Positions 1 to 64,000 of a DNA stretch of 64,000 bases are shown here, piece by piece. Each line of letters opens with the position of its first letter. Positions within the stretch are counted from its first letter, which is position 1. Under the pieces are notes generated by a model that searched no databases, was not told where the DNA came from, and was given only the letters and a program-made list of their open reading frames with translations. This DNA comes from Maribacter luteus (GTDB lineage: Bacteria; Bacteroidota; Bacteroidia; Flavobacteriales; Flavobacteriaceae): NCBI RefSeq assembly GCF_009674825.1, contig NZ_WKJH01000024.1, positions 62,001-126,000 on the forward strand, read 5' to 3'. The position numbers and the translations under genes were made by a program.

Positions 1-1760
1 GCCACGATATTATATCTAAAAACATCTTCACTGTTCTGAAACCAAACATGGGGATGTAAAGAGTTGTTGACCATGATATTATTTTCCGCAACCCTATTGA
101 ACCCTTCTCGCAATTTAAGTCCATTGTTCAACAACAGATTATTGTAGATATAATAGTTGGAAGACCCATCATCCAGGTCAATATCCCACCCATGGTCACA
201 ACGAAAACGATTATTTCGGATAATGGTCGTATGCACAGCATCCCACTGCCACATTTTCGGATTCGCCGTGGTAAGGCTATCCATAATTTTGCGGTTCGGA
301 TGCCAAAAACGATCCCTACCCCATGAATTGAACGATCCATGGTCACTGGTTTCCAATACGGTATTGAATACGTCATTGTATTCAAGAACGTGACCTCCCC
401 AGGTACCGTCCCCGATGTTTATGCCTGCCCTGGGTACATCATAAATACTGTTATGGCGTACCGTAATATCCATGGCCATGGAGATTTGCACTCCGGCCGT
501 TTGTTTTTCCAATCGACCTATTCTGTGGATCAAATTATTTTCGACCAAACATTCCCTGGGGTACAATTCATTTTTGGGTCCGGTTACCGTATCCATTTCC
601 GTCATTGGCACGAACTCCCTATAATTAAAAGAAGGTGACCGTACCGCTGAAGGATCTCCGATAAATGAAATGGCACTGGCCCCACAGTCGTGAATATGGT
701 TTCCCTTGATTTGAAGGCCTTTATTGTATTTACTGACCATAATTACATTACCCCCTAAATTCGTGAATTCACTATCCGATACACTACAGTTTTCGGTACC
801 TTCAAAGAAAAGGGCCCCACCGCGGTAAATGGTCCAGTCACTTCTTAAAAGAGGCTCGTATTTGTCCATAAACGTACGTTTTGAGCTTTCGAACCGTATT
901 CCACTAATGGAAATGTTCTTAACCGGATTTTCCAAAGTACCGACTACCTGCACTAAATTTTTCAGGGCCGCCACCTCAACTTTAGAGGTATTGGGGGTTC
1001 CTTCTTGGGTTGGCCAATAATATAGTTTGTTTCCTTTCTTATCGAGATACCACTCTCCAGGGTTATCGAGCTCTTCAAAGACATTCTCTACCATTCGGAA
1101 TTCATCGTGGGGTTCAGAAGGCCTATTGTTTTGATGCCCTCCTTTTAGAATTGGGGTTCCGTCATCTTCCACACCTGTGACTTCAAAGTGAAAACCTCCC
1201 CATCTACCCTTATGCAAGGCATGAAAATAGGTCCCCTCGGGTTGTTTCCAGGAAGCTATGCGCTCTTTTGACAAAGCATCCGCGGCATATCCCTGCCAAT
1301 AATGGGCATTTTCATCATAGTTTGGATAACGTGCCAAAACTTGGGGTACTCCATCGACCATCAACTGATCGAAATCGGAATTTTCAGGAACGTGTGCTAC
1401 ATAGATATCCTGATTGTATTTTTCCCATTGCAACGATAAGGGTTTCGAACCTTTTATAATGACGTCCGATGCCTTGCTCCCTTTTATTACCAGGCCACTT
1501 AAATGTGGGGAAAGCAGGATCGGTTCCGATAAATAATATTCCCCGGGAAGTAGTTGGATCACCACCTCGGTATTAAAATCCTTTTGTTTTAATCGACTTG
1601 CTTTTTGTATGGCCTCCGATATCGTCGCCAATGGCTCTTCTTTGGTTCCTACCCCCCCTGTCTGCACACTTTGGGAGACAAAAAGTGTTACCCTTTCTTC
1701 TTTTGGGGAACAGGATAACATAAGTACCATACTGAATATTAAAACAACTCTTATCTTCAT
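1..1760 (-). CDS. Right-handed parallel beta-helix lipoprotein, C-terminus outside window (GH141-like?)
   Basis: This frame is open from an ATG at 1760 to the window edge, giving at least 586 codons without the C-terminus. The N-terminus is a lipoprotein signal (VLMLSC) followed by TLFVSQSVQTGG and KEEPLATISEAIQKA, the usual opening of parallel beta-helix carbohydrate-active proteins. Repeated N-rich rungs follow (LVENNLIH, TIIRNNRF, YYIYNNLLLNNG), and a GWDIDLDDGSSNY motif comes late. The block FEELDNPGEWYLD resembles bacterial proteins annotated as beta-helix or GH141-like glycosidases, but I cannot assign the family. It lies 11 nt after the alpha/beta hydrolase and is probably the last visible gene of the left operon. 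The likely role is surface or periplasmic glycan cleavage. The beta-helix fold is fairly sure; the activity is open. Confidence 0.75.
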   Translation of the reverse strand, partial: MKIRVVLIFSMVLMLSCSPKEERVTLFVSQSVQTGGVGTKEEPLATISEAIQKASRLKQKDFNTEVVIQLLPGEYYLSEPILLSPHLSGLVIKGSKASDVIIKGSKPLSLQWEKYNQDIYVAHVPENSDFDQLMVDGVPQVLARYPNYDENAHYWQGYAADALSKERIASWKQPEGTYFHALHKGRWGGFHFEVTGVEDDGTPILKGGHQNNRPSEPHDEFRMVENVFEELDNPGEWYLDKKGNKLYYWPTQEGTPNTSKVEVAALKNLVQVVGTLENPVKNISISGIRFESSKRTFMDKYEPLLRSDWTIYRGGALFFEGTENCSVSDSEFTNLGGNVIMVSKYNKGLQIKGNHIHDCGASAISFIGDPSAVRSPSFNYREFVPMTEMDTVTGPKNELYPRECLVENNLIHRIGRLEKQTAGVQISMAMDITVRHNSIYDVPRAGINIGDGTWGGHVLEYNDVFNTVLETSDHGSFNSWGRDRFWHPNRKIMDSLTTANPKMWQWDAVHTTIIRNNRFRCDHGWDIDLDDGSSNYYIYNNLLLNNGLKLREGFNRVAENNIMVNNSLHPHVWFQNSEDVFRYNIV

Positions 1761-1771
1761 TTTAAATCATA

Positions 1772-2638
1772 TTACAAGGTGGGTTTCCCTTTTAAATAAC
1801 CTATAGACCGTAAAAAGGCGTCAGCTTCCAACGTTGTTTCCACATAATATTTATCACCTTTTTGTTTCCCTCTATTAAAAAATCCGTGTTCCTGGTTTTC
1901 ATAAATAAAAACATCACACCTACTCCCTACGGCTTCCATCTTTGCTTTGTAATCATAAGCCGTTGAAACCGGTATATATTTGTCTTTGTCCCCCAGGAAA
2001 AAAATAGTGGGTGGAGCTCCTTTTTTTATGTTGTGTAAGGGCGAAAACCCTAAATAACGGTCTCCGATCCTTTCGTAACCATAACCTTTTTCACTGTTGT
2101 CTATTACCGGATTATATAACACCAGGGCACTGGCCTTTGGGCTTATCGACAAATCATCGGTTTCTTCATTGATTCCGGGAAGCAAGGATGTTGCGGCAGC
2201 CAAATGCCCCCCTGCCGAACCGCCAGAAGCAACGATTTTATCGGTATCGATACCATATTCATCAGCTTTGGTCTTTAAGAAGCGCATCGCGGATTTGGCA
2301 TCTTTTACAGCTTCAAAAGGGGTAGTGCCATGTTCATTCTTTACCCTATAATCCACCAAAACGGAAATCATGCCCCTTGACGCAAAATATAAGGCTTGGT
2401 CCTTAAATTGGTAAATGGAACCTCCATTCCAACCGCCCCCAAAAAAGAACACTATGGTCGGATATTTTTTGTTGGCCCTAAAATCAGTTGGATTGTAAAT
2501 TTGAAGCTTCAAAGTATCCTCGTTGACTACTTTATAAACAAGTTCATGCGCATATTCATCAATAACCTCCTTTTTCTTTTGGCCATTGACCATACCCACG
2601 ACAAGCAATAAAAGTATTATATGGATTTTCGTTTTCAT
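1772..2638 (-). CDS. Secreted alpha/beta hydrolase, probable carbohydrate esterase
   Basis: The 288-residue protein begins with a signal peptide (MKTKIHIILLLLVVGMVNG). It has an oxyanion-hole stretch (FFFGGGWNGG, about residue 65), the nucleophile elbow SGGSAGG (Ser near residue 139), a late Asp in GDKDKYIPV and a catalytic His in ENQEHGFF. This order is that of the BD-FAE/acetyl-xylan-esterase-like branch of the alpha/beta hydrolases. It sits 4 nt after a heparinase-type lyase and 11 nt before the beta-helix gene, so co-transcription is very likely. In this setting it most likely removes acetyl or other acyl groups from the glycan. The substrate is inferred, and peptidase-like relatives of the same fold are the main alternative. 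Confidence 0.8.
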   Translation of the reverse strand: MKTKIHIILLLLVVGMVNGQKKKEVIDEYAHELVYKVVNEDTLKLQIYNPTDFRANKKYPTIVFFFGGGWNGGSIYQFKDQALYFASRGMISVLVDYRVKNEHGTTPFEAVKDAKSAMRFLKTKADEYGIDTDKIVASGGSAGGHLAAATSLLPGINEETDDLSISPKASALVLYNPVIDNSEKGYGYERIGDRYLGFSPLHNIKKGAPPTIFFLGDKDKYIPVSTAYDYKAKMEAVGSRCDVFIYENQEHGFFNRGKQKGDKYYVETTLEADAFLRSIGYLKGKPTL

Positions 2639-2642: not shown

Positions 2643-5429
2643 CTATTGTGCTATTATTACTTTATCATAGTTTTTTTCCAGCTTAAAATATTGCAGATTC
2701 GAATTGTTCCTATTCAATACCGCATTCTTCGTAGCGACTGTCCTTCCGTCTTCGTATATCGAAATCGTAGCACGCTTATCCCCTTGCTTATAAGGTAAAT
2801 TAATGGTAACGGGTTTATTGTTCTGAACCTCATATCCTTCCCCCACCTTTTCAATGGATAAGGTAAAGGGGTCCCCGGAAGCTATGATGGTCCAGTCTTT
2901 GTAATCCATTTTGCTTACTCCGGACAAAAACATGAATTCCAATGTTCCATCGTTTTTTGATGTCCTAATGATCGATAATAATCCTTTTTGATACATCCCG
3001 TCAGTTTTGGCTATATCTAGTTCCGATGCATTTACAACAATTCTATCTGAAGTTATTTTATCCGATAATGAAACATCTATGATCTGTGTATGTGGATAAT
3101 CCTTTAAAGCCGAAAATGATACGTTTTCAACCGTATTTGCTTCCCCTTCGACATAGGGGTTAAAAACCACGGAAAATGGGTTGGTCCAAGCGGCTTCATC
3201 CCTTTTTACGATTAAGGTTTGCAACGAATCCTGTAAGATGGACTTTGGTGCAGTCCCTTCGCTTAATGCGTTGGAGTTAGGTGATTTTACCTTGTAAATG
3301 GTTTGGTTTTCACTTCCCTTAATCCATAACTTCATCACATTATTCGGTTTATCGTCCTCTTTTAACGTAAATACCGCGTTCACATCTTTTGAAGTACTTG
3401 CTTTCCTTTTATCCGAAAAGAAATCATAACCCTTTAAATCGCCATGTTCTGAGCTTAAGTCATTTGTTTTTTGAAATTCCAAACCATTGGAACCAATATC
3501 TTGAACATCCAATGTTTGCCCTATATTTCGATAAATATATTCATGCTTTTGCTTTCCGCCATTTTGTTTCCGAGACCTGAAAACATCCACCACATAAGCT
3601 TTATCGGCATTCGTTTTTATTATGGCGGAAAAACGCTGCTGATCGGATACCGTTTCGGGTTCCACAAACGATACTTTTGAAAAGGTCACCTTATCAAAAA
3701 CAGTGGACTCACCCGATTTTGGAAAACTATCATCCAACGAAAATGGATGATAGGTACGCATGTTGTTATAATCGGATTTGCCATCCACGATTACCGTATT
3801 ATGGGCCGGCATCCTCGCATAGTAATTTTTGAACGTCGGGTGCCAGTAACTTGGGCCTTTACCTGAATCTGGACCCAACACATAATTGTTGGCGAACAGT
3901 TCTATCGAAATACCATTGGCGTGTGCATGATTCCCATATGAACCTATAGTGGATAGCATGACCGCATTATCGCCTTGGCCCATTCTTTGGTTGAACATAC
4001 TGATGTTCGGTGCATAAAATGTTGGCGTCGTTAGGGCCTCCAAATCGGCCTTACTATCGACGATAGTATCTACATAAAAGAATAAATTGAAAAAATCCTT
4101 AGCTTTTCTTTCATATAATCCAGCAGACATAAACTCGGATAAGAACCCGGAGATCAACGTTTCTTTTTCTTTTTGGTGGTACTTTCTATAATTGGCTATT
4201 AAAAGTTCGAAATTTTCCGGAGGCAAAATCTTATGTCCACCATCACCTGCCCCTATCATATAACCCGAAGGGAACAAGTATTGGAATGATGATAATACCG
4301 CTTTTTCCAAAATAGGGTATTTCGATATTTCATTCCGGTTGGTACCATGATCCAACAAGGTGAATATTTTCAATAGCGTTGTGATAACATGCACAGAATA
4401 CGTGGGGCATTCGGGCCAAATGCCGGTTTCCTGATCGTAGACGTTCAAAGATTCACTTACGGCTATTTGCCTATCGGTTGAAATCGTAAAAGTATAATCT
4501 AAATAATACTCACGTCCTTTTCCGTTTTCGTAAGTCGCATTACTTTCCAAAACCAATGCGATATAAGTTAAAAATCGGGCTTGAAACAAATTCCAGTTAT
4601 TATCGGGAATACCATTTTTAATGATTTGATCGCCCCACTTTTGGAAAACCGCCGCTGCAGTTGATAAGTCCCTGTTTTCAGCTTTAAAATACGCATACAG
4701 AAAATCGTAAGTGGTTACCAGCGGAATAACGACCCCTTCATGGATGACCTCAAAAGTGGCCAACCCTGAAATTTTTTGTTGGGTGGAATTTTCTAAATCG
4801 ATGGGCGCATCCCTGTGATACATACCATCGATGTACTTAAAAAATACGGGGGCCGCGAATTCCGCATATTTACGCTCCCCTGTAAACCAATATAAGAAAG
4901 CAGCATCGGCAACCAAGCCCATAATCTCGTCATTGATTTTTTCAATGGCGAACCCTGCTTTGGATGGATGGATCCACTCCTTTTTCCCCGTATCCTTATG
5001 TTCTAAGTAAAGGCCTCGGGGGTCATCAAAATAAGGTTCAACATCTTCCAGTTTTGGCCTTTTATAATCGGTTGCCCAATCCCTAGTCCCGGAATATCTA
5101 ACGGTAGGCACAGGTGCCGAACCTTCGGAATGTGAAAAATCACCCCCCTTTAAATACACCTTATCATGCTTGGTCTTCCAGTTCATTTGCAGTCTGGATA
5201 CCATCCATTCCGGATCTTTTTCCCAATATTGGACATATTTTTCCAACCGTTTTTTCTTATTATCAATCAGCTCTTTTTTCCATTCAACGGTCTTTACGGC
5301 CTTTACAAAAGCTTCTTTTTCCTCATTGGTAACATAGACCCTAGGATGCCCCAGCTCCTGCCCAAATAATGATTTTGAGCCCATTAAAAGACAAACCGTC
5401 AGTAGTAGTATTTTTGTTATCCCTCTCAT
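2643..5429 (-). CDS. Heparinase II/III-type polysaccharide lyase (paralog 1)
   Basis: The 928-residue exported protein (signal MRGITKILLLTVCLLMG) has an alpha-toroid N-terminal half opening with HPRVYVTNEEKEAF. A heparinase II/III-like beta-sandwich follows, with GNHAHANGISIELF near residue 500 and a PAHNTVIVDG segment. In lyases of this superfamily the His and Tyr residues around such a motif act in beta-elimination on uronate linkages; here the usual HxHxD reads HAHAN. It is a tandem paralog of the gene 5 nt upstream, sharing WMVSRLQMNWK versus WIVSRLAMYWK and APVPTVR. Together with GH88 in the same operon this predicts cleavage of a glucuronate- or iduronate-containing backbone. I cannot give the PL family; PL40-like ulvan lyases and GAG-type lyases are both possible. 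Confidence 0.8.
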   Translation of the reverse strand: MRGITKILLLTVCLLMGSKSLFGQELGHPRVYVTNEEKEAFVKAVKTVEWKKELIDNKKKRLEKYVQYWEKDPEWMVSRLQMNWKTKHDKVYLKGGDFSHSEGSAPVPTVRYSGTRDWATDYKRPKLEDVEPYFDDPRGLYLEHKDTGKKEWIHPSKAGFAIEKINDEIMGLVADAAFLYWFTGERKYAEFAAPVFFKYIDGMYHRDAPIDLENSTQQKISGLATFEVIHEGVVIPLVTTYDFLYAYFKAENRDLSTAAAVFQKWGDQIIKNGIPDNNWNLFQARFLTYIALVLESNATYENGKGREYYLDYTFTISTDRQIAVSESLNVYDQETGIWPECPTYSVHVITTLLKIFTLLDHGTNRNEISKYPILEKAVLSSFQYLFPSGYMIGAGDGGHKILPPENFELLIANYRKYHQKEKETLISGFLSEFMSAGLYERKAKDFFNLFFYVDTIVDSKADLEALTTPTFYAPNISMFNQRMGQGDNAVMLSTIGSYGNHAHANGISIELFANNYVLGPDSGKGPSYWHPTFKNYYARMPAHNTVIVDGKSDYNNMRTYHPFSLDDSFPKSGESTVFDKVTFSKVSFVEPETVSDQQRFSAIIKTNADKAYVVDVFRSRKQNGGKQKHEYIYRNIGQTLDVQDIGSNGLEFQKTNDLSSEHGDLKGYDFFSDKRKASTSKDVNAVFTLKEDDKPNNVMKLWIKGSENQTIYKVKSPNSNALSEGTAPKSILQDSLQTLIVKRDEAAWTNPFSVVFNPYVEGEANTVENVSFSALKDYPHTQIIDVSLSDKITSDRIVVNASELDIAKTDGMYQKGLLSIIRTSKNDGTLEFMFLSGVSKMDYKDWTIIASGDPFTLSIEKVGEGYEVQNNKPVTINLPYKQGDKRATISIYEDGRTVATKNAVLNRNNSNLQYFKLEKNYDKVIIAQ

Positions 5430-5434: not shown

Positions 5435-8104
5435 CTATTTGATTTCCAAGTTATATCCTGCCGGATATTCTTTAGCCCCTTTTTTGTTGATTTGAATGAA
5501 AAGCGGCTTGTCCGATGAATAATAGTACTTACCGTCTTCGATTCGCAATGCTGCTGAAACCGCTTCATTGACCGCCTCTATCTTATACTTGCCGTTTTGA
5601 AGCAATTTTCCCTTGCCTAAGTATAAATAGTCAAACTTTCCGTTTTTTTCCGAAGCCACCCCTAAAGTCCCTTTGAACTTTAAATTTTTTGCTGGTTTAT
5701 ATACCGTGTTGCCATCAATCGAATTACAGATGACCTGAGTGCTGTGTGTCGACGTGACCTTTAAACTTACCATATCCCCAAAATCTCCGACTTTCGTAAT
5801 CTTTTCAATTGATTTTTCACCTGTCGCATACGGCTCAAATACCGAAACAAACGGATGTGCTTGTGCATTTAATCCATTCTGACGTACGATTAAGGTTGGC
5901 GTTGTTTCCGGACTTTTATTGATTTGCTTTGGTGTAATATCTTCCCGTAAGGTTGTTGGTGGAGCATCTACCACATACAATTCCCGGTTATCCTGGCCCA
6001 TCATCCACATATTTACGTGTAAGGCTTGAGATACCGAATTGATATCCCAAGTGGCATTGAAATCGCCGTCATACTCCACTTTGCGTTGGTTTTCAAAGAA
6101 GCTGTAATGCTTATTGTGGGCCGTTCCCAAGTCATTTACCGCCATTAAAGACAACACTTGGTCGGAGGCATCTTTAAGGGTAACCGCATTCCCCAGATTA
6201 TGATGTAAATAATCGTTGTCATCTTGATCGGACCTGAAGATATCGACATAATAACCAGAGGTTTCCGAAGTGCGTACCATCGCTACCACGCGACGTTTTT
6301 CTTCAGCGGACACATCGGCAAAAGACACCAGTTCCGAGGTTACTTCGGTATTGTAAAAGCCGTTATCCTCCGTTTTTGGATCCATGGCATTTACCGTGAT
6401 TTCCCCTGATTTATATCCTGGAATTATGGTATTGGACCCCGTAATCCCCCTGTGATATCCAGCATCCGGAGACCAGTACGATTCGTAAGCCGATGCATCC
6501 GGAGCCAAAGCCCACCCTTTACCGTAGAATTGAAACGCCAATCCGTTTTCCGCTAAATGCGACTTTTGGCGTCCGCCATAAAGTGTGAACATCAGGCCGT
6601 TTTCTTCATCGTTTCCATTCCTTAAGATCATATGTCTATGGAATTTTGAATAGGCCGATCTGTGATACGGTAACTCACTGCCCGATTCCGGTAAGGTTTG
6701 ATTCAAGATAATATCCCGCCATTGGGATCCATTCCAATCGTATTGACCGTTCTCTATATTCTTCTTGATGACCGTTGCCATGGTCTTGGCGGTTTTTGTA
6801 TCACCTGTCCATGTCGAATAGGTCAATAGCGCTTCAAAAGCCGACATGTTGAATGCCCCACCGCGCATATCGCCAAAAACGACTAAATTTCCACGGGCAT
6901 CCAACCAACCCAAATTTGCCAAAGCCGCTTTTTCGATAATGGGATTTCCTGCCAGCGTGTTCATGCCGGACTTATATAATAGTATGCCCATGTCCAAAAC
7001 CGTCGGGATCATGCCCGAAGCGTACCCAGGGGATTCTGGCCATAAGCCTGTTTCGGTATTGTAATTGGCCATGATCTCGGGTAAACCAGCATAATGATCT
7101 CCCGATTTTTCTGTATAAAACGGAATGTAGTACTCCCGCCCTTTACCATCTTCATAAAAATCATTGGACTCCAATACCAGCATACTGCCTATGATATTCT
7201 TATACCGGTTTACATTCCAGTTTCCTTTCTTACCCCCGCGGACCAAACCGATTTCTATAAAACGTTTAAATACCTCACTGGCCACATCGACCGTTTTTTT
7301 GTTGATTTCCTTAAGATGTTCGTGCGGATGGGCATTTAAGTAATCATATAGAAAGTCATAGGTGGCCGCCATGGGAATCTGACGATCGTCGTGGATCACT
7401 TCATAATCATAGTAACCCATAATCCCCCCAGGTTCATAGCCTCCCTGTCCGCCAGTTGATTCTTCGGGATCTAAGGGCGGATTCATATAATAGGTTCCCA
7501 ATATCCAAGACCAAAAAATATCGGCCGAAAACTTGGCGTATTCTTCTTTTTGGGTGATAAAATATGCAAATGCGGATTTTTCCGCCAGTTTTAAAATTTC
7601 CATATTGTTCGCCCGAATCATATGACCAGTTTCCTTATACGGGATTTTTACCGGAGTCTTATCGGCACTTGACCGACTGATCCCTAACATGTCGCCAGTT
7701 TCGTTGTACGGGATCCTATCTTCCAAGGGCACATTCACATAATCGTTCCATTTACGCATACCCGGCAGACGCACCGTGGGTACAGGGGCATTACCTTCAC
7801 CATAATTCCAATCCTGGCCTTTGATATAACATTGGGTATAGCGCTCGCCGTCTTTCCAATACATGGCCAATCGTGAGACAATCCATTCCGAGTCGGTAAC
7901 ATGTAGGTCTACATAGGGGTTTATTTCCTCTAAAAGCATGTGCCATGAGGCTTTGGCCCATGGTTCCGTTTCGATTTTGGCCAAAACCTCCTCCCGATCG
8001 CCATCTGCCACCAACAATCGTGGATGGTCTGATGCTTTTTGTGCTTGTATAGCGATGGCGACGATCAAACTAAAGAACAAGGTTATGGGTCTTATGGCTG
8101 TCAT
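5435..8104 (-). CDS. Heparinase II/III-type polysaccharide lyase (paralog 2)
   Basis: The 889-residue protein has a signal peptide (ITLFFSLIVAIAIQAQ) and the HPRLLVADGDREEV opening typical of heparinase II/III-like proteins. It shares blocks with its neighbour: EWIVSRLAMYWKDG, GNAPVPTVRLPG, FYEDGKGREYY, TGLWPESPGYASG and KGWALAPDASAYESYW. At the beta-sandwich motif it reads SHLAENG where paralog 1 reads NHAHANG, so the second His is replaced. That may mean altered chemistry or specificity rather than loss of function, since the rest is intact. It lies 44 nt after the sulfatase at 8149-9828 and 5 nt before paralog 1. Location is presumably periplasmic or surface. The fold call is good; activity on a uronate polymer is inferred. 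Confidence 0.78.
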   Translation of the reverse strand: MTAIRPITLFFSLIVAIAIQAQKASDHPRLLVADGDREEVLAKIETEPWAKASWHMLLEEINPYVDLHVTDSEWIVSRLAMYWKDGERYTQCYIKGQDWNYGEGNAPVPTVRLPGMRKWNDYVNVPLEDRIPYNETGDMLGISRSSADKTPVKIPYKETGHMIRANNMEILKLAEKSAFAYFITQKEEYAKFSADIFWSWILGTYYMNPPLDPEESTGGQGGYEPGGIMGYYDYEVIHDDRQIPMAATYDFLYDYLNAHPHEHLKEINKKTVDVASEVFKRFIEIGLVRGGKKGNWNVNRYKNIIGSMLVLESNDFYEDGKGREYYIPFYTEKSGDHYAGLPEIMANYNTETGLWPESPGYASGMIPTVLDMGILLYKSGMNTLAGNPIIEKAALANLGWLDARGNLVVFGDMRGGAFNMSAFEALLTYSTWTGDTKTAKTMATVIKKNIENGQYDWNGSQWRDIILNQTLPESGSELPYHRSAYSKFHRHMILRNGNDEENGLMFTLYGGRQKSHLAENGLAFQFYGKGWALAPDASAYESYWSPDAGYHRGITGSNTIIPGYKSGEITVNAMDPKTEDNGFYNTEVTSELVSFADVSAEEKRRVVAMVRTSETSGYYVDIFRSDQDDNDYLHHNLGNAVTLKDASDQVLSLMAVNDLGTAHNKHYSFFENQRKVEYDGDFNATWDINSVSQALHVNMWMMGQDNRELYVVDAPPTTLREDITPKQINKSPETTPTLIVRQNGLNAQAHPFVSVFEPYATGEKSIEKITKVGDFGDMVSLKVTSTHSTQVICNSIDGNTVYKPAKNLKFKGTLGVASEKNGKFDYLYLGKGKLLQNGKYKIEAVNEAVSAALRIEDGKYYYSSDKPLFIQINKKGAKEYPAGYNLEIK

Positions 8105-11843: not shown

Positions 11844-11889
11844 TTTAATGATTTTTTCAAGTATTTCCATATCCTATCTACTTCAAATC

Positions 11890-24329: not shown

Positions 24330-24367
24330 GTATTAAGATATTTAATATAAAATTTAAAAACATTCAA

Positions 24368-37774: not shown

Positions 37775-37812
37775 TCTTTTTGTTTTAGACCTAAATTTAA
37801 ACCAATTTTAGA

Positions 37813-39111: not shown

Positions 39112-39127
39112 TCGCTAATTATCCAAT

Positions 39128-40208: not shown

Positions 40209-40210
40209 TT

Positions 40211-42156: not shown

Positions 42157-42271
42157 GAGATAAATTATCATTTCACAGAAAGAAACCCCCAACGTTTTAT
42201 TATAAAATTAGAACCCAATTACTTTATGTAGTGTTTAGGAACAAATAGGTTGTTTTTATAATATCGGCACA

Positions 42272-43921: not shown

Positions 43922-43994
43922 ATTTAATAATTTTAACAACTTATTTTCATTTCAGGTATAAAAGCATCATATCCCAACTTACGCATTTTCAACA

Positions 43995-51051: not shown

Positions 51052-51076
51052 ATATGCGTTGTGTTCTTTTAGGAAC

Positions 51077-54428: not shown

Positions 54429-54430
54429 GA

Positions 54431-55219
54431 TTACAAGTTTTCAGCAATAATTTTCGCAACTTCTTTCCCCTGTTCTTTTTTGCCTAAATCGTTATAATGT
54501 ACGTTACGGGGTTTAATAAACCAGTCCTTGGCATTGGGTTTGGTAAAGCTGTACAAATCGTTGATGGCAATTGATGGATAATCTGCCAAAACCTCCAAAG
54601 CCGCTTTGTTGTACTTTACACTATCGCCTGCAACCCTGCCATTGGCACCTTCATCAGGAACTGCGGTGGTCGTAGCAAAAATCAATTTTGCTTTTGGATA
54701 TTCCTTCATCAGATATTCACAAATCCCATGTAGGTTTTCCTTATACTTTTCAATGGTGTTTACCTGCTTTCCGTTTTCTAAATCGAGCTTACCGTTTTTT
54801 ACATATTTTAAATCGTGCAACCCGACATTAAAATGAATAACATCCCAATCGAAATCCCAACCACCTTTCAAGTAAGGCTGAAACATGGTCGTTTTCATTT
54901 TTTCCATAAAAGGGATGAACTTATTACTTGATTGTCCGTTTTTATGAAACCTAAACACATTGGCTTTTCCTTCCAATTCGGTTCTTACTGTTGGGGTATA
55001 GCCTATTGAAATGGAATCGCCATAAATAAACACATTGGGAAGTTTCTTATCCGGATTTACATATGCAAAGGCTTCACCCTTGTTCGCAAGTTTGCCCCAT
55101 GCTTCCCTACATACCCCTTCATCGTACTTCCTTCTAAAAAAACCTGTCGATGCGCAGGAAGAAACCCCAATATAAATGGAGGTGGCCCCTACATACTTTA
55201 AAAATTTCCTTCTTTCCAA
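54431..55219 (-). CDS. SGNH/GDSL hydrolase, lipoprotein, TTG start
   Basis: The 262-residue protein begins at a TTG (55219), since an in-frame stop lies just upstream and the next Met is far inside. The signal RRKFLKYVGATSIYIGVSSC has both a twin-arginine-like RR and a lipobox. Block I is FIYGDSISIGY (nucleophile Ser near residue 67), with a later NVGLHDLKYV in the oxyanion block and NVHYNDLG carrying the Asp/His pair near residue 241. SGNH hydrolases in PULs often remove acetyl groups from glycans. It is 2 nt before GH20 and 18 nt after a sulfatase. Confidence 0.82.
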   Translation of the reverse strand: MERRKFLKYVGATSIYIGVSSCASTGFFRRKYDEGVCREAWGKLANKGEAFAYVNPDKKLPNVFIYGDSISIGYTPTVRTELEGKANVFRFHKNGQSSNKFIPFMEKMKTTMFQPYLKGGWDFDWDVIHFNVGLHDLKYVKNGKLDLENGKQVNTIEKYKENLHGICEYLMKEYPKAKLIFATTTAVPDEGANGRVAGDSVKYNKAALEVLADYPSIAINDLYSFTKPNAKDWFIKPRNVHYNDLGKKEQGKEVAKIIAENL

Positions 55220-56823: not shown

Positions 56824-58257
56824 TTAAATCGAAACCACCAAGGTGTTGAACGATTTACCCTCAATGGCTGCCTTTACGACTTCCTCCCCTATGGTAACAT
56901 TGAGTTCTTGTCTTTCATCCGTATCGTTATACGTCAAAACGACTACGGTTTTATCGGCTTCATTGTAAAAAGCAATGGTATTTGCGACATCCCCGGCAGC
57001 CAATAACTTTACGGAGCCTGGAGCCACATAAGCGCTCAAATGTTTCATTAAGTAGAATTCAGGATTGTACACGATGGCCTTGGTCTTACTGTCGATAGAG
57101 ATCATTGAATTTTGTTTCCAACCCCATTGGCTTTTGCCTGTTTCATCCAATACCATATTCCAATACATGTACGAATTCGCGCCGTTTTCAAAATAATGCT
57201 TCATTAAACCGAAGGTATGTTCAGCCGCCTTCCAATCGTTGGACCCATCACCGCATTCGGTTTCGGTCTGCATCAATCGCATTTCGGGATAAGTGGCATG
57301 AACCGCTTTTATCGCCCCTTTACCGGCCCACTGAAAACCGATTCCATCTACATACTCTTTTGCATTCTTATACTCAATAACATCGGTTACCCTTTCCAAT
57401 TGTGGACGCTCGACGGTACCCAACCAAATCTCCGTATCCAAGTTCTCAGATTTGAATTTAGGCCCTAGATAATCAGCAATGAATATTCCTAAATCTTGAG
57501 GTTTCCAGACACAAGACGGGAAATTTTGAGCTGAATTGGGTTCATTCTGTACGTGTACCGCACTAATATCGATACCTGCTTCTTCGTAAGCTTTTACAAA
57601 TTTTGCAAAGTATAATGCATACGCTTCAAAATATTCCGGTTCTGTAATAAAACGGGACACCAACTCTTCGGTTGAGCTCCATTCTTCCGGTAGATCGTTA
57701 AACTCGGGGTTCGACTTGCAGGCATAATGCTTACTGTGCTTCATCCAAGAAGGTGGACACCATGGGGAGGCCCAAACTTCTACTTCAGGATTTATTTTTT
57801 GCGCTTCCTTGATGTATGGGATCAAACGTTCCTTATCCCTATCGATAGAGAAATTTTCCATGGCGAAATCCCCATCGGTTTCGTTATGGCTATACCAGTT
57901 AACCGCATAGTCATTGGCCCCTATCGGCATTCTACAAATGTTGAATTTGCATCCTGAATCAGTGTCAAAGAAATCATTTAGGATCTGTTGTTTTTCTTCC
58001 GGGGTTACCATATTTAAAGCTTCCCATCCCAATTCATTGAAACAACCTCCGAAACCATCTATAGTCTGTTGCTTTTTACTTAAATCTAAATTGATCGTAA
58101 TTTTAGCCAACTCCCCTTCACTTGTTCCGGTATAGACTTTGGTCTCCCAAAGGTCATCGTTTGTAGAACTTACCCAATCTACCTTTATTTCAGGCTCTTG
58201 TTTACATGAATAACTGGCCAATAGAACAAAAATAACTGCGATTTTAAATACTTTCAT
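56824..58257 (-). CDS. GH30 glycosidase, lipoprotein
   Basis: The 477-residue lipoprotein (VFVLLASYSC) has QQTIDGFGGCFNELGWEAL near the front, WASPWCPPSWMKHSKHYAC, the acid/base Glu in VHVQNEPNSAQNFPSC near residue 239 and the nucleophile Glu in RLMQTETECGDGSND near residue 332. The all-beta domain characteristic of GH30 closes the protein. Members include beta-glucosidases, beta-xylosidases, beta-glucuronidases and beta-fucosidases, so activity here is not fixed. It is 6 nt after GH3 and in the same run as the sulfatases. Confidence 0.93.
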   Translation of the reverse strand: MKVFKIAVIFVLLASYSCKQEPEIKVDWVSSTNDDLWETKVYTGTSEGELAKITINLDLSKKQQTIDGFGGCFNELGWEALNMVTPEEKQQILNDFFDTDSGCKFNICRMPIGANDYAVNWYSHNETDGDFAMENFSIDRDKERLIPYIKEAQKINPEVEVWASPWCPPSWMKHSKHYACKSNPEFNDLPEEWSSTEELVSRFITEPEYFEAYALYFAKFVKAYEEAGIDISAVHVQNEPNSAQNFPSCVWKPQDLGIFIADYLGPKFKSENLDTEIWLGTVERPQLERVTDVIEYKNAKEYVDGIGFQWAGKGAIKAVHATYPEMRLMQTETECGDGSNDWKAAEHTFGLMKHYFENGANSYMYWNMVLDETGKSQWGWKQNSMISIDSKTKAIVYNPEFYLMKHLSAYVAPGSVKLLAAGDVANTIAFYNEADKTVVVLTYNDTDERQELNVTIGEEVVKAAIEGKSFNTLVVSI

Positions 58258-58263
58258 AACTTA

Positions 58264-60942
58264 TTATTTTACGTTTAATATACCTCTTAGGCGAATATCC
58301 TTTGATGATGCCCCGATCATAATCCTAAAGTTCCCGGATTCCACTACCCAGTTCAAATCTTTATCCAGCATGGATAATTTTTCCGAATCCAGCTCAAATG
58401 TGACTTGCTTTTTCTCCCCCGTTTTCAATGAAATACGTTGAAACCCTTTCAATTCCTTTATCGGTCTTGACACTGAAGCCAATTCATCCCTGATATACAG
58501 TTGAACCACTTCATCCCCATCAAATTGACCGGTATTCTCCACTGTACAGGAAACTTGGACGGTATCATTCTTGGCGATATTGTTTTTACTAAACTCAAGG
58601 TCGCTATATTCAAAGGACGAATAGCTCAACCCATAACCGAAAGGAAACAAAGGTTGCCCCGTAAGATTATGGTAGTTATCACCCCTTCCCGTGGGTTTAT
58701 TGTTATAATACAGCGGACATTGGGCCGCATCAACAGGAAAGGTAATGGGTAAACGCCCGGCAGGACTTTCATCCCCGAACAACACATCGGCCAAGCCGTT
58801 ACCCCCATTTTCACCCGGATACCAAGCCATCAGTATTCCATCGACATTGGACTTCCAATCGGCCATGGTAATGGCACTACCCCCAACGAGAACAACTACT
58901 GTAGGTTTACCTGTTTTAGCAACGGCGTTAATTAACTTTTCTTGATTTTCCGGTAAATCCAATAGGGCCCTGTCCCTAAATTCGCCCTCATGTATACCGG
59001 CAACCACTACAGCCACTTCACTTTTTTTTGCTGCTGAAACTGCATCTGAAATTTGTTTGTCCAAATCATCCACTACGCCATGATCCCATATCATCTTGAA
59101 CTTGGCATTCCCTGCGGATTCAAAATACTCCAATTTTATATCATATTCCTTACCTGCTTGGAACCTGAACGGTTTTACCACGGTGTTATAGGATTGTTTC
59201 TGCCAATTGTCAATAATCAATTCCCCGTCCAAGTAAAATCGATACCCGTCATTTCCTTCAATACCGATATGGACCAAACCTGATTTGGGCGCCTTTAATT
59301 TCCCTGTCCATCGTGCAGAAAACCAATCGTAGGGTAAATCCTCATGCGGGGAAAAGAGGGTCCATCCAAATTGGATCTTTTTATCGATTCGCTCCACTTT
59401 TGGCGTACCGCTAAGTTTGATATTATCAAAATACGATGCACTCAGGCCGGTCTTTTCTTCTCCATCCTCAACGGTAGAAAGGAATTCTGAGGCAACCACT
59501 TTATAGGATTCTTCTTTAAAGGTAACTCCTTCTGCACAGGAAACATTGGCCTCCCCAATTTTATTGACAACCCCATCATATATGGATACTTTGTCGTTAC
59601 CGGGACCGCTATACCCCCCTAAACGGGCAGCCTTGGCATCATACCCGATAAGGGCCACTTTGGCCGCCTTTTTCAACGGCAACACTTGATCTTGATTCTT
59701 TAACAATACCATGGATTTTGCCGCTGCTGTCCGAGCCAACTCCCTATGGTCTTTGTGACCGTTCCAAAGTGCAGCTTCCTCAACATCTACATATGGATCC
59801 TCGAACAATCCCAATTCGAATTTTGCTTTTAGGATACGACTTACCGCTTCGTCTATGGCGGCTAAGTCAACCATCCCTTTTTCATAGGCTTCCCAGAAAA
59901 GTGGATAGTGATTGTAATTGGTTTGAAACATGACATCCAATCCCGCTTCAACGGCGTCTTCGGTGGATTCTGCGTAGTTTGCCGCAGTAAAATGCAACAC
60001 ATTGGCCCCTCCCGTTGCTCCCGCATCAGAAATCACAAACCCGTCAAAGCCCCATTCTTCTTTCAACTTTTTTCGAAGCAACCATTCGTTTGAGGTAGAC
60101 GGACTACCATCAACAGAATTATAGGCCGTCATTACAGACCTTGCCCCGGTTTTTTGAAATACGGTTTTAAATGCCGGAAAATAGATTTCCTCCAACAGGC
60201 GTTCGTTAAAACTAATAGGGTAACTGTCCCTACCTCCTGCGCCCACATTGGCCACAAAATGTTTTGGCGTGGTAATGACATCCTCACGTTCAAAGGCCCC
60301 TATAAAAGCAGATGCCATTTGTGTGGTTAAAAAGGGATCCTCCCCATAGGTCTCTTCAACACGTCCCCAACGTACATCCCTGGCGATATTCAGAACAGGT
60401 GAAAGTATTTGTCTAATACCCCTGGTTTTGGTTTCTTTTGTTATCGCTTTGGCCACATTCCCCACTAAAGTGGTATCCCAGGTGGCGGCCAAAGCTATAG
60501 CCTGTGGATAAGCAGTGGCTCCATCCCGGGCCAAACCATGCAAAGCTTCATTAAACGGGATGATAGGAATGCCCAAACGCGACTCCTCTATAAAGTAACG
60601 CTGTATCTCATTGATTTCCTCCGCCATTTGTTTGGCACTTCCCGTTGAACCGTAATCCATAATCTGTTCAGCAGCATTGTCATTCTTTCCTTTGGATGAA
60701 ATCTGAAACCCGAAAATACCATGTTTCAATTTATCTTTTCCAATGCTTAAATCCCCAGGGATCATGAACATTTGCCAGAACTTTTCTTCCAACGTCATTC
60801 GACCCAATAAATCTTCAACACGTTCATCGACTGATAGGTTGGGATTCTTGTAAGCCGGATTTTCATCGTCCCGATTTTGTGAACATGACCAAATACAAAT
60901 TCCAAAAAGGGCAATCAGTGTTATATTAAGTAAGTATTTCAA
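58264..60942 (-). CDS. GH3 glycosidase with inserted PA14 domain, lipoprotein, TTG start
   Basis: The start is a TTG at 60942, with no in-frame ATG between the preceding gene and this codon. The lipoprotein signal (LFGICIWSC) follows at once. The barrel has RLGIPIIPFNEALHG and the nucleophile Asp in GFDGFVISDAGATGG near residue 304. The second domain has VALIGYDAKAARLGGYSG and is interrupted by a PA14 module (GLVHIGIEGNDGYRFYLDGE, about residues 500-640), and a fibronectin-III-like C-terminal domain closes the protein. Family activities include beta-glucosidase, beta-xylosidase and N-acetylglucosaminidase. It lies 28 nt after a sulfatase. Confidence 0.92.
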   Translation of the reverse strand: MKYLLNITLIALFGICIWSCSQNRDDENPAYKNPNLSVDERVEDLLGRMTLEEKFWQMFMIPGDLSIGKDKLKHGIFGFQISSKGKNDNAAEQIMDYGSTGSAKQMAEEINEIQRYFIEESRLGIPIIPFNEALHGLARDGATAYPQAIALAATWDTTLVGNVAKAITKETKTRGIRQILSPVLNIARDVRWGRVEETYGEDPFLTTQMASAFIGAFEREDVITTPKHFVANVGAGGRDSYPISFNERLLEEIYFPAFKTVFQKTGARSVMTAYNSVDGSPSTSNEWLLRKKLKEEWGFDGFVISDAGATGGANVLHFTAANYAESTEDAVEAGLDVMFQTNYNHYPLFWEAYEKGMVDLAAIDEAVSRILKAKFELGLFEDPYVDVEEAALWNGHKDHRELARTAAAKSMVLLKNQDQVLPLKKAAKVALIGYDAKAARLGGYSGPGNDKVSIYDGVVNKIGEANVSCAEGVTFKEESYKVVASEFLSTVEDGEEKTGLSASYFDNIKLSGTPKVERIDKKIQFGWTLFSPHEDLPYDWFSARWTGKLKAPKSGLVHIGIEGNDGYRFYLDGELIIDNWQKQSYNTVVKPFRFQAGKEYDIKLEYFESAGNAKFKMIWDHGVVDDLDKQISDAVSAAKKSEVAVVVAGIHEGEFRDRALLDLPENQEKLINAVAKTGKPTVVVLVGGSAITMADWKSNVDGILMAWYPGENGGNGLADVLFGDESPAGRLPITFPVDAAQCPLYYNNKPTGRGDNYHNLTGQPLFPFGYGLSYSSFEYSDLEFSKNNIAKNDTVQVSCTVENTGQFDGDEVVQLYIRDELASVSRPIKELKGFQRISLKTGEKKQVTFELDSEKLSMLDKDLNWVVESGNFRIMIGASSKDIRLRGILNVK

Positions 60943-60970: not shown

Positions 60971-62521
60971 TTATTTTATGTGCTCCAACTGTGGCCAATC
61001 CTCAACGGTGTCATTCATTTGTTTTTCCCCCTCGGTACTTCTACCGTTATTGATGATTTGCAGTAAATCGGTCCTATATTCGGTGATCACTTCCGGAAAT
61101 TCGGCTTGGAGGTTGTTTTGTTCCGCCATATCCTCTTTTACATTATAGAGCTGCACTTTGGGTAGAGTGTCCAAAACCGCTTTCTTTACATTCTTACTTG
61201 GGTAGCTCCAACCACCGGAACCGAAACAAAAATTGACTTTATAGTCTCCTTTTCTATAGGCGAACTCCCCATCAACGGAATGGTGTACAATACTTTTCCT
61301 TAAAGGTTTTTGTGATTTTATGTTCGTTACCGCAAGGTGACTATAGCTATCAACAGCTACGTCATCAGCATAATCGGCCCCTATTAAATCGGCTACGGTT
61401 GCAAATAAATCCGTAGTACAAACCAACTGATTCGATTTGGTGGGTTCAATGGTTCCTTTCCAACTCATGATATACGGTACGCGATGGCCTCCTTCATAAA
61501 TATCGGATTTAAAACCCCTAAATACATAACTTGGATTATGCCCTTTGGTCTTTAGTTGTTTATAATTGGCAGCAGGGGAACAACCGTTATCACTAGTGAA
61601 AACGATCAATGTGTTTTCGGAAATCCCATTTTGTTCCAATGCCTTTGTGACTTCACCAACCACCCAATCAACCATTAAAACAAAATCCCCATATGGGTTA
61701 TCCAAACCACTTTTCCCTTGAAACTCCTTGGTGGGAAGAATAGGGGTATGCGGTGCCGGTAATGGCATATAAATGAAAAACGGTTTGTCCTTATTTGCAT
61801 TTTCAGCAATAAAATTCACCGTGCGTTCCGTAATCTCCGGCAGGGCCTCTTCATGGGAAAAATCTTTGGATGTCGGTCCTTTTCTCCAGGTTGCCTGACC
61901 TTTTTTGCCCTTGGTGGTATCTGTCGGCACCTTAGTAGGCATGCCATTTTCAACCCATACATAAGGAGGCATATCCAAAGAACCACAAAAGCCATAACTA
62001 TAATCGAATCCGTGGGTATTAGGTCCGTTTTTAACCGGTATGGTATAATCTACCTGGGGACGGGCCTTTAGATGGTCTATACCCAATGAGTCGGTATTTT
62101 CCAAGGTCCAATCCCACCCTAAGTGCCATTTGCCGATATATGCCGTAGCATACCCATTTTCATTCAAAAAATCGGCAACCGTGGTTTCCTCTTGTTGTAT
62201 GAGTGATTTGGAATACCCGCTTAACACCCCTTTTTTAAGGGTGGTACGCCAATTATAACGTCCTGTCAAAACACCATAACGGGTGGGGGTACAAACCGAA
62301 GAACTGGTATGTGCATCGGTGAACATGACGCCTTCTGATGCCAGGTTATCGATGTACTGTGTCTTTATCTTGGAATTCTCATTATACGATGAAACATCGC
62401 CATACCCCAGATCATCGGCCAATATATAAATGATATTGGGTTGTACTGGCTCCTTTTTTGACTTGCACGAACATAGTACAATACTGAGTACCGCTATTTT
62501 CAGGATCGATTGTATTGACAT
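60971..62521 (-). CDS. S1-family sulfatase, lipoprotein
   Basis: The 516-residue lipoprotein (LSIVLCSC) has IIYILADDLGYGDVSSY, FGly motif CTPTR near residue 77 in HTSSSVCTPTRYGVLTGR, IGKWHLGWDW and VFTSDNGCSPAANY. It is the paralog of the sulfatase at 51077-52564 with conserved SGKSGLDNPYGDFV versus KSGMGSYADFV and GGWSYP versus GGWSAP. Thr instead of Ser follows Pro in the FGly motif, which is within family variation. The ATG overlaps the stop of the upstream sulfatase by one base (TAATG), so the two are coupled. Confidence 0.93.
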   Translation of the reverse strand: MSIQSILKIAVLSIVLCSCKSKKEPVQPNIIYILADDLGYGDVSSYNENSKIKTQYIDNLASEGVMFTDAHTSSSVCTPTRYGVLTGRYNWRTTLKKGVLSGYSKSLIQQEETTVADFLNENGYATAYIGKWHLGWDWTLENTDSLGIDHLKARPQVDYTIPVKNGPNTHGFDYSYGFCGSLDMPPYVWVENGMPTKVPTDTTKGKKGQATWRKGPTSKDFSHEEALPEITERTVNFIAENANKDKPFFIYMPLPAPHTPILPTKEFQGKSGLDNPYGDFVLMVDWVVGEVTKALEQNGISENTLIVFTSDNGCSPAANYKQLKTKGHNPSYVFRGFKSDIYEGGHRVPYIMSWKGTIEPTKSNQLVCTTDLFATVADLIGADYADDVAVDSYSHLAVTNIKSQKPLRKSIVHHSVDGEFAYRKGDYKVNFCFGSGGWSYPSKNVKKAVLDTLPKVQLYNVKEDMAEQNNLQAEFPEVITEYRTDLLQIINNGRSTEGEKQMNDTVEDWPQLEHIK

Positions 62522-63903
62522 TATTTCTTTAATAAATGTTCCTTATTCCTTTTGTTCCCTTGTAGCTCCTTATCAAACCCTTCCATCATTTTTTGCAATT
62601 TTTCAACGATTTTAGGATGTTCGGAGGCTATATTCCTACTTTCCGAAATGTCTTCCTTCAGGTTATATAAAGCGACCCCGTCTGTGGTAACCCTTAATTT
62701 CCAATCGCCTTTTCGCACGGCTTCCAAGGTTGATTCCTTATAGTAATAAAACCCTTCCTTGTAATGGGGTGATTTACTTTTCTTACCGGACAACAATTTC
62801 CAGATATTCTTGCCATCGATAGGTTTTTCGGGTAAATCACTATGGGTCAAATAGGCTAATGTAGGTAAGATATCAATCGTTGAAGCAAGCTCGTTGCAAA
62901 CGGTATTCGCAGGTATTTTCCCCTTATATTGTGCGATCATGGGTTCACGCATGCCGCCTTCGTAGGTGTCGAACTTATAACCCCGCAATGGATAGGCGCT
63001 ACCGCCATGTCCGTTCTTTAAATCCCACGGTCCGTTATCCGAAGTAAAGATCACCAAAGTATTGTCGTCCAAGCCTAAAGTGTCCAGAGTTTTTAAAATT
63101 TCACCCACACTCCAATCAATTTCCTCGATTACGTCCCCATACAGACCTCGTTTACTCTTTCCCTTAAATGCTTCTGAGGCATGTAAAGGAATATGGGGCA
63201 TTGAGTGTGCCAGGTATAAAAAGAAAGGGCCTTCTTTATGCTCTTTAATAAACTCCACTGCCTTTTTGGTATAGCGCTGGGTCAATGTGTTTTGATCTAC
63301 GGGATATTCGATGATTTCGTTTTGCTCGGTTAACGGAACTTTACCTTTCCTCCATTTCTTTTGCCTAAGGCTATCCATGGTCATCCCTTCCCTGAATAAA
63401 ATGTGTTTTGAGACCTTTGCTTCTGGATAAACCGACATATCGTTGCTATATGGAATACCATAATACATATCGAACCCTTGAGCGGTCGGCATATATTGAT
63501 CCCTATCCCCTAAATGCCATTTCCCGATACATGCAGTGGCATACTCTTGGGTTTTAAGCATATCGGCTATCGTATACTCCTCATTCGACAATCCCCCGGG
63601 TATGTTGGGCCATAGCACTTCTGGCACTCCGATACGGGGAGGGTATGCCCCTGTTAACAACGCCGCCCTCGAGGGTGAACATACTGAGGATGCAGAATAA
63701 AAATCGGTAAACTTCATCCCGTTTGATGCCATCGTATCCAGGTTTGGCGTACTGATCAAAGGCGACCCAAAAACCCCGACATCCTGATAGCCCTGATCGT
63801 CGGTGAAAATCAGTATCACGTTGGGTTTTTCTGTTTTCTTCTGGGCCAAGACCAAATGGCTCCAACCAAAAACAAGGGTCAAAAGGATTGCTAATTTTTT
63901 CAT
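62521..63903 (-). CDS. S1-family sulfatase, secreted
   Basis: The start at 63903 (MKKLAILLTLVFGWSH) begins a signal peptide ending VLAQ and gives 460 residues. A frame from 63990 would run through the coding end of the preceding gene, so it was rejected. It has VILIFTDDQGYQDVGVFG, FGly motif CSPSR near residue 74 in SASSVCSPSRAALLTGAYPP, IGKWHLGDRDQY and VIFTSDNGPWDLKNGHGG. It lies 10 nt after the edge gene. It looks like an arylsulfatase-A-like enzyme of common length; the substrate is not determinable. Confidence 0.92.
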   Translation of the reverse strand: MKKLAILLTLVFGWSHLVLAQKKTEKPNVILIFTDDQGYQDVGVFGSPLISTPNLDTMASNGMKFTDFYSASSVCSPSRAALLTGAYPPRIGVPEVLWPNIPGGLSNEEYTIADMLKTQEYATACIGKWHLGDRDQYMPTAQGFDMYYGIPYSNDMSVYPEAKVSKHILFREGMTMDSLRQKKWRKGKVPLTEQNEIIEYPVDQNTLTQRYTKKAVEFIKEHKEGPFFLYLAHSMPHIPLHASEAFKGKSKRGLYGDVIEEIDWSVGEILKTLDTLGLDDNTLVIFTSDNGPWDLKNGHGGSAYPLRGYKFDTYEGGMREPMIAQYKGKIPANTVCNELASTIDILPTLAYLTHSDLPEKPIDGKNIWKLLSGKKSKSPHYKEGFYYYKESTLEAVRKGDWKLRVTTDGVALYNLKEDISESRNIASEHPKIVEKLQKMMEGFDKELQGNKRNKEHLLKK

Positions 63904-63913
63904 GTCTGCTTTT

Positions 63914-64000
63914 TTATAATGATTGTAATGTGCCATCAAAAGAATATGTTCCGCCCTTTTCGGTTTCCAATTCCATTTGCTTATCCCCATATACCAAAAT
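63914..64000 (-). CDS. C-terminal 28 codons of a protein running off the right edge
   Basis: On the minus strand an open frame enters at 64000 and ends at TAA (63914-63916), reading ILVYGDKQMELETEKG then GTYSFDGTLQSL. Its phase, ordinary codons and the 10-nt gap to the sulfatase start support a real gene end. The KGGTYSF-type tail resembles the C-terminal beta domain of many exported glycosidases, such as GH95 fucosidases. That is only a guess from 28 residues. Confidence 0.65.
   Translation of the reverse strand: MLVYGDKQMELETEKGGTYSFDGTLQSL

Follow-up and report, generated by a model that had tools for sequence, protein, structure and literature searches.

Two probable polysaccharide utilization loci joined around a fucose operon in Maribacter luteus

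We analysed a stretch of 64,000 nucleotides of the Maribacter luteus genome (4.65 Mb in 30 contigs), C24:62001-126000, hereafter the window, which is the middle part of a region of ~150 kb on contig C24. Three units are joined in it: module A (1-30.7 kb), which extends left past the window, a fucose operon (30.9-42.2 kb), and module B (42.3-64 kb), which extends right to its own SusC/SusD pair and sigma/anti-sigma pair. An initial annotation had described the window as one polysaccharide utilization locus (PUL) for a single fucosylated, sulfated polymer of uronate and hexosamine. Each gene that it named is present: six sulfatases, all with the motif C-x-P-[S/T]-R; two GH29 and two GH20 genes; GH92, GH97, GH3, GH30, GH43 and GH88; two heparinase-like and three esterase-like genes; SusC/D; and the kinase, FucI, aldolase, AldA, FucP, mutarotase and LutABC at 30870-42156. 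However, synteny with the nearest relative and the separate SusC/D pairs show two PULs and a fucose operon instead of one PUL. We propose that module A probably acts on a uronate-bearing fucose-containing sulfated polysaccharide (FCSP) and module B on sulfated, fucosylated N-glycans. The features of the window, in window positions, are as follows.

3..1760, minus strand: GH141-like parallel beta-helix protein (Beta_helix and GH141_M above cut-off), cut by the window edge; whole gene C24:61391-63760
1772..2638, minus strand: esterase of BD-FAE type (Pfam BD-FAE), with orthologues in 19 of 71 related loci
2643..5429, minus strand: HEPa, heparinase-like uronate lyase of PL40 type, activity predicted; best solved relative 9vtk (Uly1040), E 1.2e-59
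5435..8104, minus strand: HEPb, second PL40-like protein, recognised by alignment (27% identical to HEPa over the full length) and without a Pfam match; second active-site His replaced by Ala
8149..9828, minus strand: sulfatase (Pfam Sulfatase and SGSH_C); nearest solved chain of N-acetylglucosamine (GlcNAc)-6-sulfatase type, 5g2v, E 2.4e-157
9843..11870, minus strand: GH97 (Pfam, three GH97 domains)
11890..13401, minus strand: sulfatase (Pfam)
13358..14200, minus strand: esterase (Pfam Esterase)
14216..15544, minus strand: sugar porter of the MFS family (Pfam Sugar_tr; NCBIfam TIGR00879 above cut-off)
15588..16688, minus strand: GH117-like beta-propeller protein of 366 amino acids, from its predicted fold (AlphaFold and Foldseek)
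16764..18116, minus strand: GH29 (Pfam)
18238..19116, minus strand: exported-looking protein of 292 amino acids beside GH88 and GH29, without a Pfam or NCBIfam match
19123..20340, minus strand: GH88 of unsaturated glucuronyl hydrolase type (Pfam; 3wiw E 4.5e-86, 1vd5 E 2.5e-71)
21090..26155, plus strand: SusC1/SusD1 (Pfam)
26492..30676, minus strand: hybrid two-component regulator (HTCS; Pfam Reg_prop, HisKA, HATPase_c, Response_reg, HTH_18)
30870..34935, minus strand: FGGY kinase, FucI and class II aldolase (Pfam, NCBIfam)
35036..35935, plus strand: AraC-type regulator (Pfam)
36253..39463, plus strand: AldA, FucP (TIGR00885 above cut-off) and rhamnose-type mutarotase
39471..42156, plus strand: LutA, LutB and LutC (Pfam CCG, LUD_dom, LutB_C)
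42143..42300, no strand: junction between the loci; BLASTN collinearity stops at C24:104143 and resumes, on another contig of the nearest relative, at C24:104301
42272..43939, minus strand: protein of 555 amino acids with a faint GH67-like signal below cut-off, found in 7 of 14 mapped module-B loci
43995..44897, minus strand: GH43 (Pfam)
44936..47266, minus strand: GH20a with a PA14 domain (Pfam; 6q63 beta-hexosaminidase, E 3e-106; GGDE motif)
47380..48681, minus strand: GH29 (Pfam)
48700..51177, minus strand: GH92 (Pfam)
51077..52564, minus strand: sulfatase (Pfam); nearest solved chains include the S1_15 type
52575..54428, minus strand: GH20b (Pfam)
54431..55219, minus strand: SGNH/GDSL-like hydrolase, the third esterase-like gene, just below the Pfam GDSL cut-off
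55238..56722, minus strand: sulfatase (Pfam)
56824..60942, minus strand: GH30 (56824-58257) and GH3 (58264-60942) (Pfam)
60971..63990, minus strand: two sulfatases (60971-62521 and 62521-63990) (Pfam)

Beyond the window, module B reaches C24:148553 with a second SusC/D pair (C24:143257-148553, recognised by homology to the window pair); FecR and a sigma factor follow, and the sigma/anti-sigma pair reaches C24:150757. By Pfam, and in some cases solely by homology to window proteins, the flanks on C24 carry two GH39, one GH120, one GH28, two GH43, two GH95, three GH29, two GH3 and two GH30 genes, one further GH141-like protein, two further heparinase-like proteins and KduI. KduI (C24:1-1704, L001) stands at the contig end, and the left border of module A lies outside the assembly. 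One GH29-family protein (C24:137040-138632) lacks the W-F-D motif that is present in the region's four other GH29 proteins.

Where does one locus end and the other begin? We compared C24:1-184000 by BLASTN with stretches fetched from the nearest relative, G006. C24:6484-104143 is collinear with G006 contig C11 (860-994 kb), and C24:104301-142825 with G006 contig C14 (831-788 kb, inverted), where SusC2/D2 lie at C14:765-770 kb. The switch falls between lutC and the gene for the 555-amino-acid protein, at window positions ~42143-42300. In G006, module A shares a locus with the fucose operon, and module B stands apart as a second locus; each stretch lies over 60 kb away from either end of its contig (1,414,181 and 900,662 bases). 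The G006 lyase, at 948564-951347 of the longer contig, is 98% identical to that of the window. Each module also has its own SusC/D and its own regulator, the HTCS in module A and the sigma/anti-sigma pair in module B.

The two modules recur separately. For module A, genome contigs were scanned with a profile from the lyase alignment, and 71 loci were taken from the best 80 of 184 confirmed stretches, each at most ~24 kb long and with some genomes included twice (e.g. L034/L096). With 55% identity across 60% of the length as the minimum for an orthologue, at least four module-A orthologues occur in 45 of these loci, module-B orthologues in only two (a GH43 each), and a fucose-operon orthologue, FucP, in one. 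For module B, we mapped 14 loci in other genomes, selected for GH20a and fetched at lengths of 40-100 kb; the set leaves out the C18 locus of the window genome (G000) and G352, which has GH20a at 52% and no block. Some genomes were reached under two handles, with identical contig coordinates (G006/G149, G022/G186, G150/G428, G152/G281, G153/G455, G178/G430 and G166/G337). None of 23 tested module-A genes occurs in any of the 14 stretches, and when all 52 module-A labels were compared there were two matches, both in G344 (a sulfatase at 70% and an SGNH protein at 56%). Sulfated material with fucose and uronate, as initially proposed, remains supported, but the idea that lyases, GH88, hexosaminidases and GH92 define one polymer is not: module A accounts for GH88, the lyases, GH97 and GH141, and module B for the window copies of GH20, GH92, GH30 and GH3. 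Nor do synteny and recurrence place a uronate lyase or GH88 with a hexosaminidase in one conserved unit, as a PUL for a fucosylated glycosaminoglycan (GAG) would have them. One odd polymer is replaced by two testable substrates, and the case illustrates how the gene mix of neighbouring PULs read as one can mislead about substrate.

Module B has a consistent core. All 14 mapped loci have four sulfatases, GH95, GH92 and GH20a (the last by selection), 13 of them have one GH29, and GH20b is likewise present in 13. Together with the fucosidases and SusC/D, the exo-acting GH92 and GH20 make up the combination expected of an N-glycan PUL. The best solved relative of GH20a, 6q63, is presumably an N-glycan enzyme of Bacteroides. 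Moreover, in 11 of the 14 stretches module B is accompanied by N-glycan genes assigned by Pfam (PNGase F, GH130, glycosylasparaginase, further GH92, a sodium symporter and others), and in 10 these include PNGase F or glycosylasparaginase. We also surveyed 39 genomes selected for module-A-type lyases (42 named loci, of which two were left out and two share one genome); 18 of them have a GH20a orthologue at 65% identity or more. PF09113 matches were found in 17 of 40 genomes and were strong (E 5e-45 or better) in 12, and in the seven genomes of the 39-genome set that have both, the strong PNGase F lies 26-41 kb from the GH20a orthologue. For the 555-amino-acid protein, PDB sequence search gave no solved relative at E 0.01, and its AlphaFold model, made from the single sequence with no alignment, is poor (pLDDT 43).

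Two other loci touch on this module. In G442, one unbroken run (C1:4093-4170 kb, L228-L231) contains module B, its N-glycan genes, SusC/D and the fucose operon, and the module-A lyase is ~591 kb away. The window genome has a separate N-glycan-type locus at C18:182101-203648 (L191, L192), with four GH92-like genes, GH130, a symporter, PNGase F and a SusC-like gene.

How does module B compare with known systems? Plant N-glycan degradation in gut Bacteroides (PMC9522356) shares GH92, GH20, GH29 and GH3 with module B, and GH130 and PNGase with its relatives; module B adds up to nine sulfatases, GH95 and GH30. The nearest solved chains to the module-B GH3 at C24:132994-135585 are beta-xylosidases. 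The PNGase of G006 is nearest to 3ks7 and 4qhb (~1e-109) and not, as a further difference from the gut system, to PNGF-II-type chains (~1e-63). PULs rich in GH92 and sulfatases, with GH88, have been read as targeting a sulfated alpha-mannan or glucuronomannan glycoprotein (PMC6298971). Module B shares their GH92, many sulfatases and suspected glycoprotein target; those PULs carry GH2 and GH88, whereas module B has GH20, GH29, GH95 and GH30 and, in relatives, PNGase F. Particle-attached bacteria have GH92, GH20 and GH109 genes for host glycans (PMC10877868), and a 2023 review (PMC10154615) lists as still undiscovered the CAZymes specific for N-glycans from such sources as algae and molluscs. 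In the full-text literature searched, which included few subscription papers, we found no description of a marine Flavobacteriaceae PUL that combines PNGase F, GH92 and GH20 with many sulfatases. Module B is plausibly a new variant of the N-glycan PUL and, with 14 mapped relatives, a concrete and conserved candidate for such enzymes.

Module A is distinguished by its lyases. The initial annotation had listed them as heparinase II/III lyases; against solved chains the lyase profile is far nearer to the PL40 ulvan lyase Uly1040 (9vtk, E 1.2e-59) than to an alginate lyase (0.028) or heparinase II (0.19). The active-site residues of Uly1040 are Asn245, Trp246, Tyr305, Asp358, His485 and His487 (PMC12915356). 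By hand count on the alignment, they correspond to N278, W279, Y344, D396, H501 and H503 of HEPa, which are invariant in seven of seven aligned proteins. Homology to Uly1040 extends over ~690 residues, and the six residues are present in HEPa and HEPc; the window lyases are, however, distant from it in sequence, lie in a fucose-rich context, and have an activity that is predicted from sequence. HEPb keeps the Asn, Trp, Tyr, Asp and base His and has Ala in place of the second His. This His binds metal in Uly1040, and rare substitutions are allowed there (PMC12915356); HEPb may be altered in activity. The fourth heparinase-like protein had no PDB sequence match at E 0.01. If confirmed, the presence in fucose-rich loci of PL40-type lyases whose active site is intact would extend PL40 beyond ulvan.

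The rest of module A has the content of a fucose PUL, with SusC/D, fucosidase-type GH29 and GH95 genes and sulfatases in one module. It also holds xylosidase-type GH39, GH43 and GH120 (insertion domain) proteins and, by fold, a GH117-like protein. The latter, the 366-amino-acid protein, has no Pfam or NCBIfam match and weak PDB sequence matches. Its AlphaFold model (pLDDT 74.7) matches GH117-type structures at Foldseek ranks 1-18 (best E 9.6e-14, TM 0.60, 17% identity). The recurrent gene order is GH88, the 292-amino-acid protein, GH29, the 366-amino-acid protein, the MFS porter, esterase, sulfatase, GH97 and sulfatase, then the HEPb-like and HEPa-like lyases, esterase, GH141-like protein, GH29 and GDSL, with some members missing from many loci. 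The module recurs across Flavobacteriia, with Mariniflexile fucanivorans, Formosa algae, Zobellia, Polaribacter, Algibacter, Tamlana and Flavobacterium algicola among its hosts. We also considered an endo-fucanase of GH141*6 type, using a signature from PMC12786026, and tend to disfavour it: the HQxWxxxD part is absent from both GH141-like proteins examined, and a loose form of the second part occurs in one of them.

In essence, module A has already been described as a genomic prediction, and its content fits published examples of fucose PULs. Maribacter dokdonensis 62-1, of the same genus, has a mixed "ulvan/fucoidan" PUL with PL33 and PL40 (PMC8072126), and module A shares with it two PL40-type lyases (~30% mutual identity), several sulfatases, GH29, GH95, GH97, GH117-like, GH141, GH28 and kduI genes. 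In that comparison, made by description rather than by alignment, PL33 was not identified in the window region, unlike in M. dokdonensis, which also has a fuconolactonase and a fuconate dehydratase where the window has FucI, kinase, aldolase and LutABC. The FCSP PULs of North Sea Flavobacteriia (PMC6298971) have in common with module A GH29, GH95, GH117, the xylosidase-type families GH43, GH30, GH39 and GH120, GH97 and many sulfatases; module A has PL40-type lyases and GH88 in addition.

The complete route from L-fucose to pyruvate proposed in the initial annotation is borne out as a cytosolic cassette at 30.9-42.2 kb. Several of its enzymes have rhamnose-type signals. The aldolase passes one NCBIfam rhamnulose-1-phosphate aldolase model (221 bits against a cut-off of 170) and misses another (138 against 401), the sole NCBIfam match of the mutarotase is the L-rhamnose mutarotase model, below cut-off, and the kinase is below all NCBIfam cut-offs (gluconokinase 67, rhamnulokinase 54 and L-fuculokinase 35 bits). 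We rejected a rhamnose operon, however: fucose is the likely sugar because FucI and FucP are clear, FucI is single in the genome, and a genome search for RhaA (PF06134), which does not cover other rhamnose routes, gave no match. FucI turned up in 12 of the 19 genomes searched. Around it in ten genomes lie the kinase, a FucA-type aldolase and AraC (all ten), AldA (nine), FucP (seven), LutA and LutB (four), LutC (three, with one stretch stopping short of it) and the mutarotase (two). The cassette adjoins module A in the window genome and G006, and module B in the single-contig genome G442; since its neighbour varies in this way, it looks like a portable utility operon.

Under the proposed two-PUL reading, module A, through its HTCS and SusC1/D1, would import and dismantle an FCSP with uronic acid and xylose of brown-algal type, for example a glucuronofucan or xylofucoglucuronan. 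The PL40-type lyases would cut beside uronate by beta-elimination, GH88 would take off the unsaturated uronyl end, and trimming of the remainder would fall to the esterases, the sulfatases and the GH29, GH95, GH141-like, GH117-like, GH39, GH43, GH120 and GH97 enzymes. Module B, with SusC2/D2 and its sigma/anti-sigma pair, would remove sulfate, fucose, N-acetylhexosamine (HexNAc) and mannose, and perhaps also xylose, from glycopeptides or N-glycans. In most relatives, the Man-GlcNAc core would be freed and its breakdown completed by PNGase F, GH130, glycosylasparaginase and extra GH92 enzymes. The fucose that either module yields would enter through FucP and be converted by FucI, kinase and aldolase to dihydroxyacetone phosphate and L-lactaldehyde, the latter passing to lactate (AldA) and pyruvate (LutABC). 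The sulfatases would be matured by a formylglycine-generating (FGE-type) enzyme.

Several observations weigh against this reading, and they are best considered with the alternatives to which they lend support. It is somewhat unlikely that module B targets a second FCSP, or a protein-linked fucan with mannose and hexosamine, rather than true N-glycans, its PNGase F neighbourhood then being an ecological convenience. Up to nine sulfatases, four GH29/GH95 genes and pairs of GH3 and GH30 seem many for an N-glycan. Furthermore, N-glycan genes are absent from three of the 14 fetched stretches (G186, G344 and G320) and from the module-B locus of the window genome, whose single PNGase F is on another contig, C18. 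Against this alternative stand the tight association with PNGase F, GH130 and glycosylasparaginase and the presence of GH92 and GH20a in all 14 mapped loci and of a second GH20 in 13.

That module A is an ulvan PUL, built from PL40, GH88, GH39, GH43 and sulfatases with accessory fucosidase genes, is improbable. The characterised activity of PL40 is on ulvan, the nearest characterised lyase is an ulvan lyase, and a rhamnose-type kinase, aldolase and mutarotase adjoin the module. Also weighing against the proposed reading of module A, we identified no endo-fucanase in it, although GH107, GH168, GH174 and GH187 were not searched for. We nevertheless disfavour ulvan: fucosidase-type GH29, GH95 and GH141-like genes lie within the module, known fucoidan degraders are among its hosts, the RhaA search came back empty, and FucI and FucP adjoin module A both here and in G006.

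Are the two modules nonetheless one system? A single fucosylated GAG-like polymer was ruled out on synteny as the leading interpretation but was retained as a rival, in the form of one undescribed fucosylated, sulfated, uronate/hexosamine polymer whose genes are split over two loci in most relatives. To it we give little credence, although the linkage data offer some support. In a family sample of 397 genomes, 11 have a close GH20a orthologue and six others one at 50-54% identity. All 11 have a module-A-type lyase (E 1e-150 or better), nine as HEPa and two with only a paralogue at 37-38% identity, compared with none of the six genomes with GH20a at 50-54% and seven of 149 relatives. Among 20 genomes with HEPa (at least 59%) and GH20a (at least 65%), including the window genome, the two genes are less than 100 kb apart in four, where a rough expectation that ignores phylogeny is ~1. 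The sulfatase at 8149-9828 is also relevant, as its nearest solved chains are a GlcNAc-6-sulfatase and a mucin-desulfating sulfatase, making hexosamine in the module-A substrate possible. Set against a single polymer are the separate SusC/D pairs and regulators, the N-glycan genes beside module B in 11 of 14 stretches, the nine of 39 genomes in which module A occurs with no GH20a match at E 1e-60, and the 13 of the 20 genomes with HEPa and GH20a on different contigs. In the seven with both on one contig, the gap is ~40 kb in the window genome, 68 kb in G344, 95 kb in G164, 96 kb in G181, 212 kb in G166, 771 kb in G229 and ~591 kb in G442 (across the origin, if circular). A misassembly in the window genome, with the modules in truth far apart here too, is equally hard to credit. 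In its favour, they sit on separate contigs in the nearest relative, with an abrupt switch that falls between genes; against it, gaps of 68-96 kb recur in three other genomes and G442 has the fucose operon immediately next to module B.

Returning to two PULs around one fucose operon, the modules are physically separable but ecologically coupled. The simplest explanation of the coupling is that both substrates come from the same algae, and a common algal source is likely. We suggest, tentatively, that marine Flavobacteriaceae could have a widespread system for the N-glycans of algal, probably brown-algal, glycoproteins, in which module B would deal with the sulfated antennae of these sulfated, multiply fucosylated glycans. 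Since, in the sampled genomes, the close form of module B occurs only alongside a fucoidan-type module-A lyase, the cell-wall glycoproteins of these algae would then carry a sulfated glycan of fucose, HexNAc and mannose. If this is true, the structure of the glycan may be deducible from the enzymes, as all 14 mapped loci have at least four sulfatases with GH95, GH92 and GH20.

Features of the wider genome complete the picture. For sulfatase maturation, the genome has two matches to PF03781 (FGE-type) and none to TIGR03942 (anSME). By a crude N-terminus score, a rough guide that also flags KduI, AraC and membrane proteins, all labelled module-A and module-B proteins except DUF6250 and GH92 have an export-like N-terminus, and FucK, FucI, the aldolase, AldA, the mutarotase and LutABC have none. 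There are 33 PF00884 matches genome-wide, 17 of them on C24 within 11.7-142.8 kb, and all 17 of these sulfatase-family proteins carry the C-x-P-[S/T]-R motif. A second sulfatase-rich region at 35-95 kb of contig C14 of the window genome (L008-L011) holds ten of the 33 matches, with one protein accounting for two, and also carries a SusC/D pair of its own along with two distant heparinase-like proteins.

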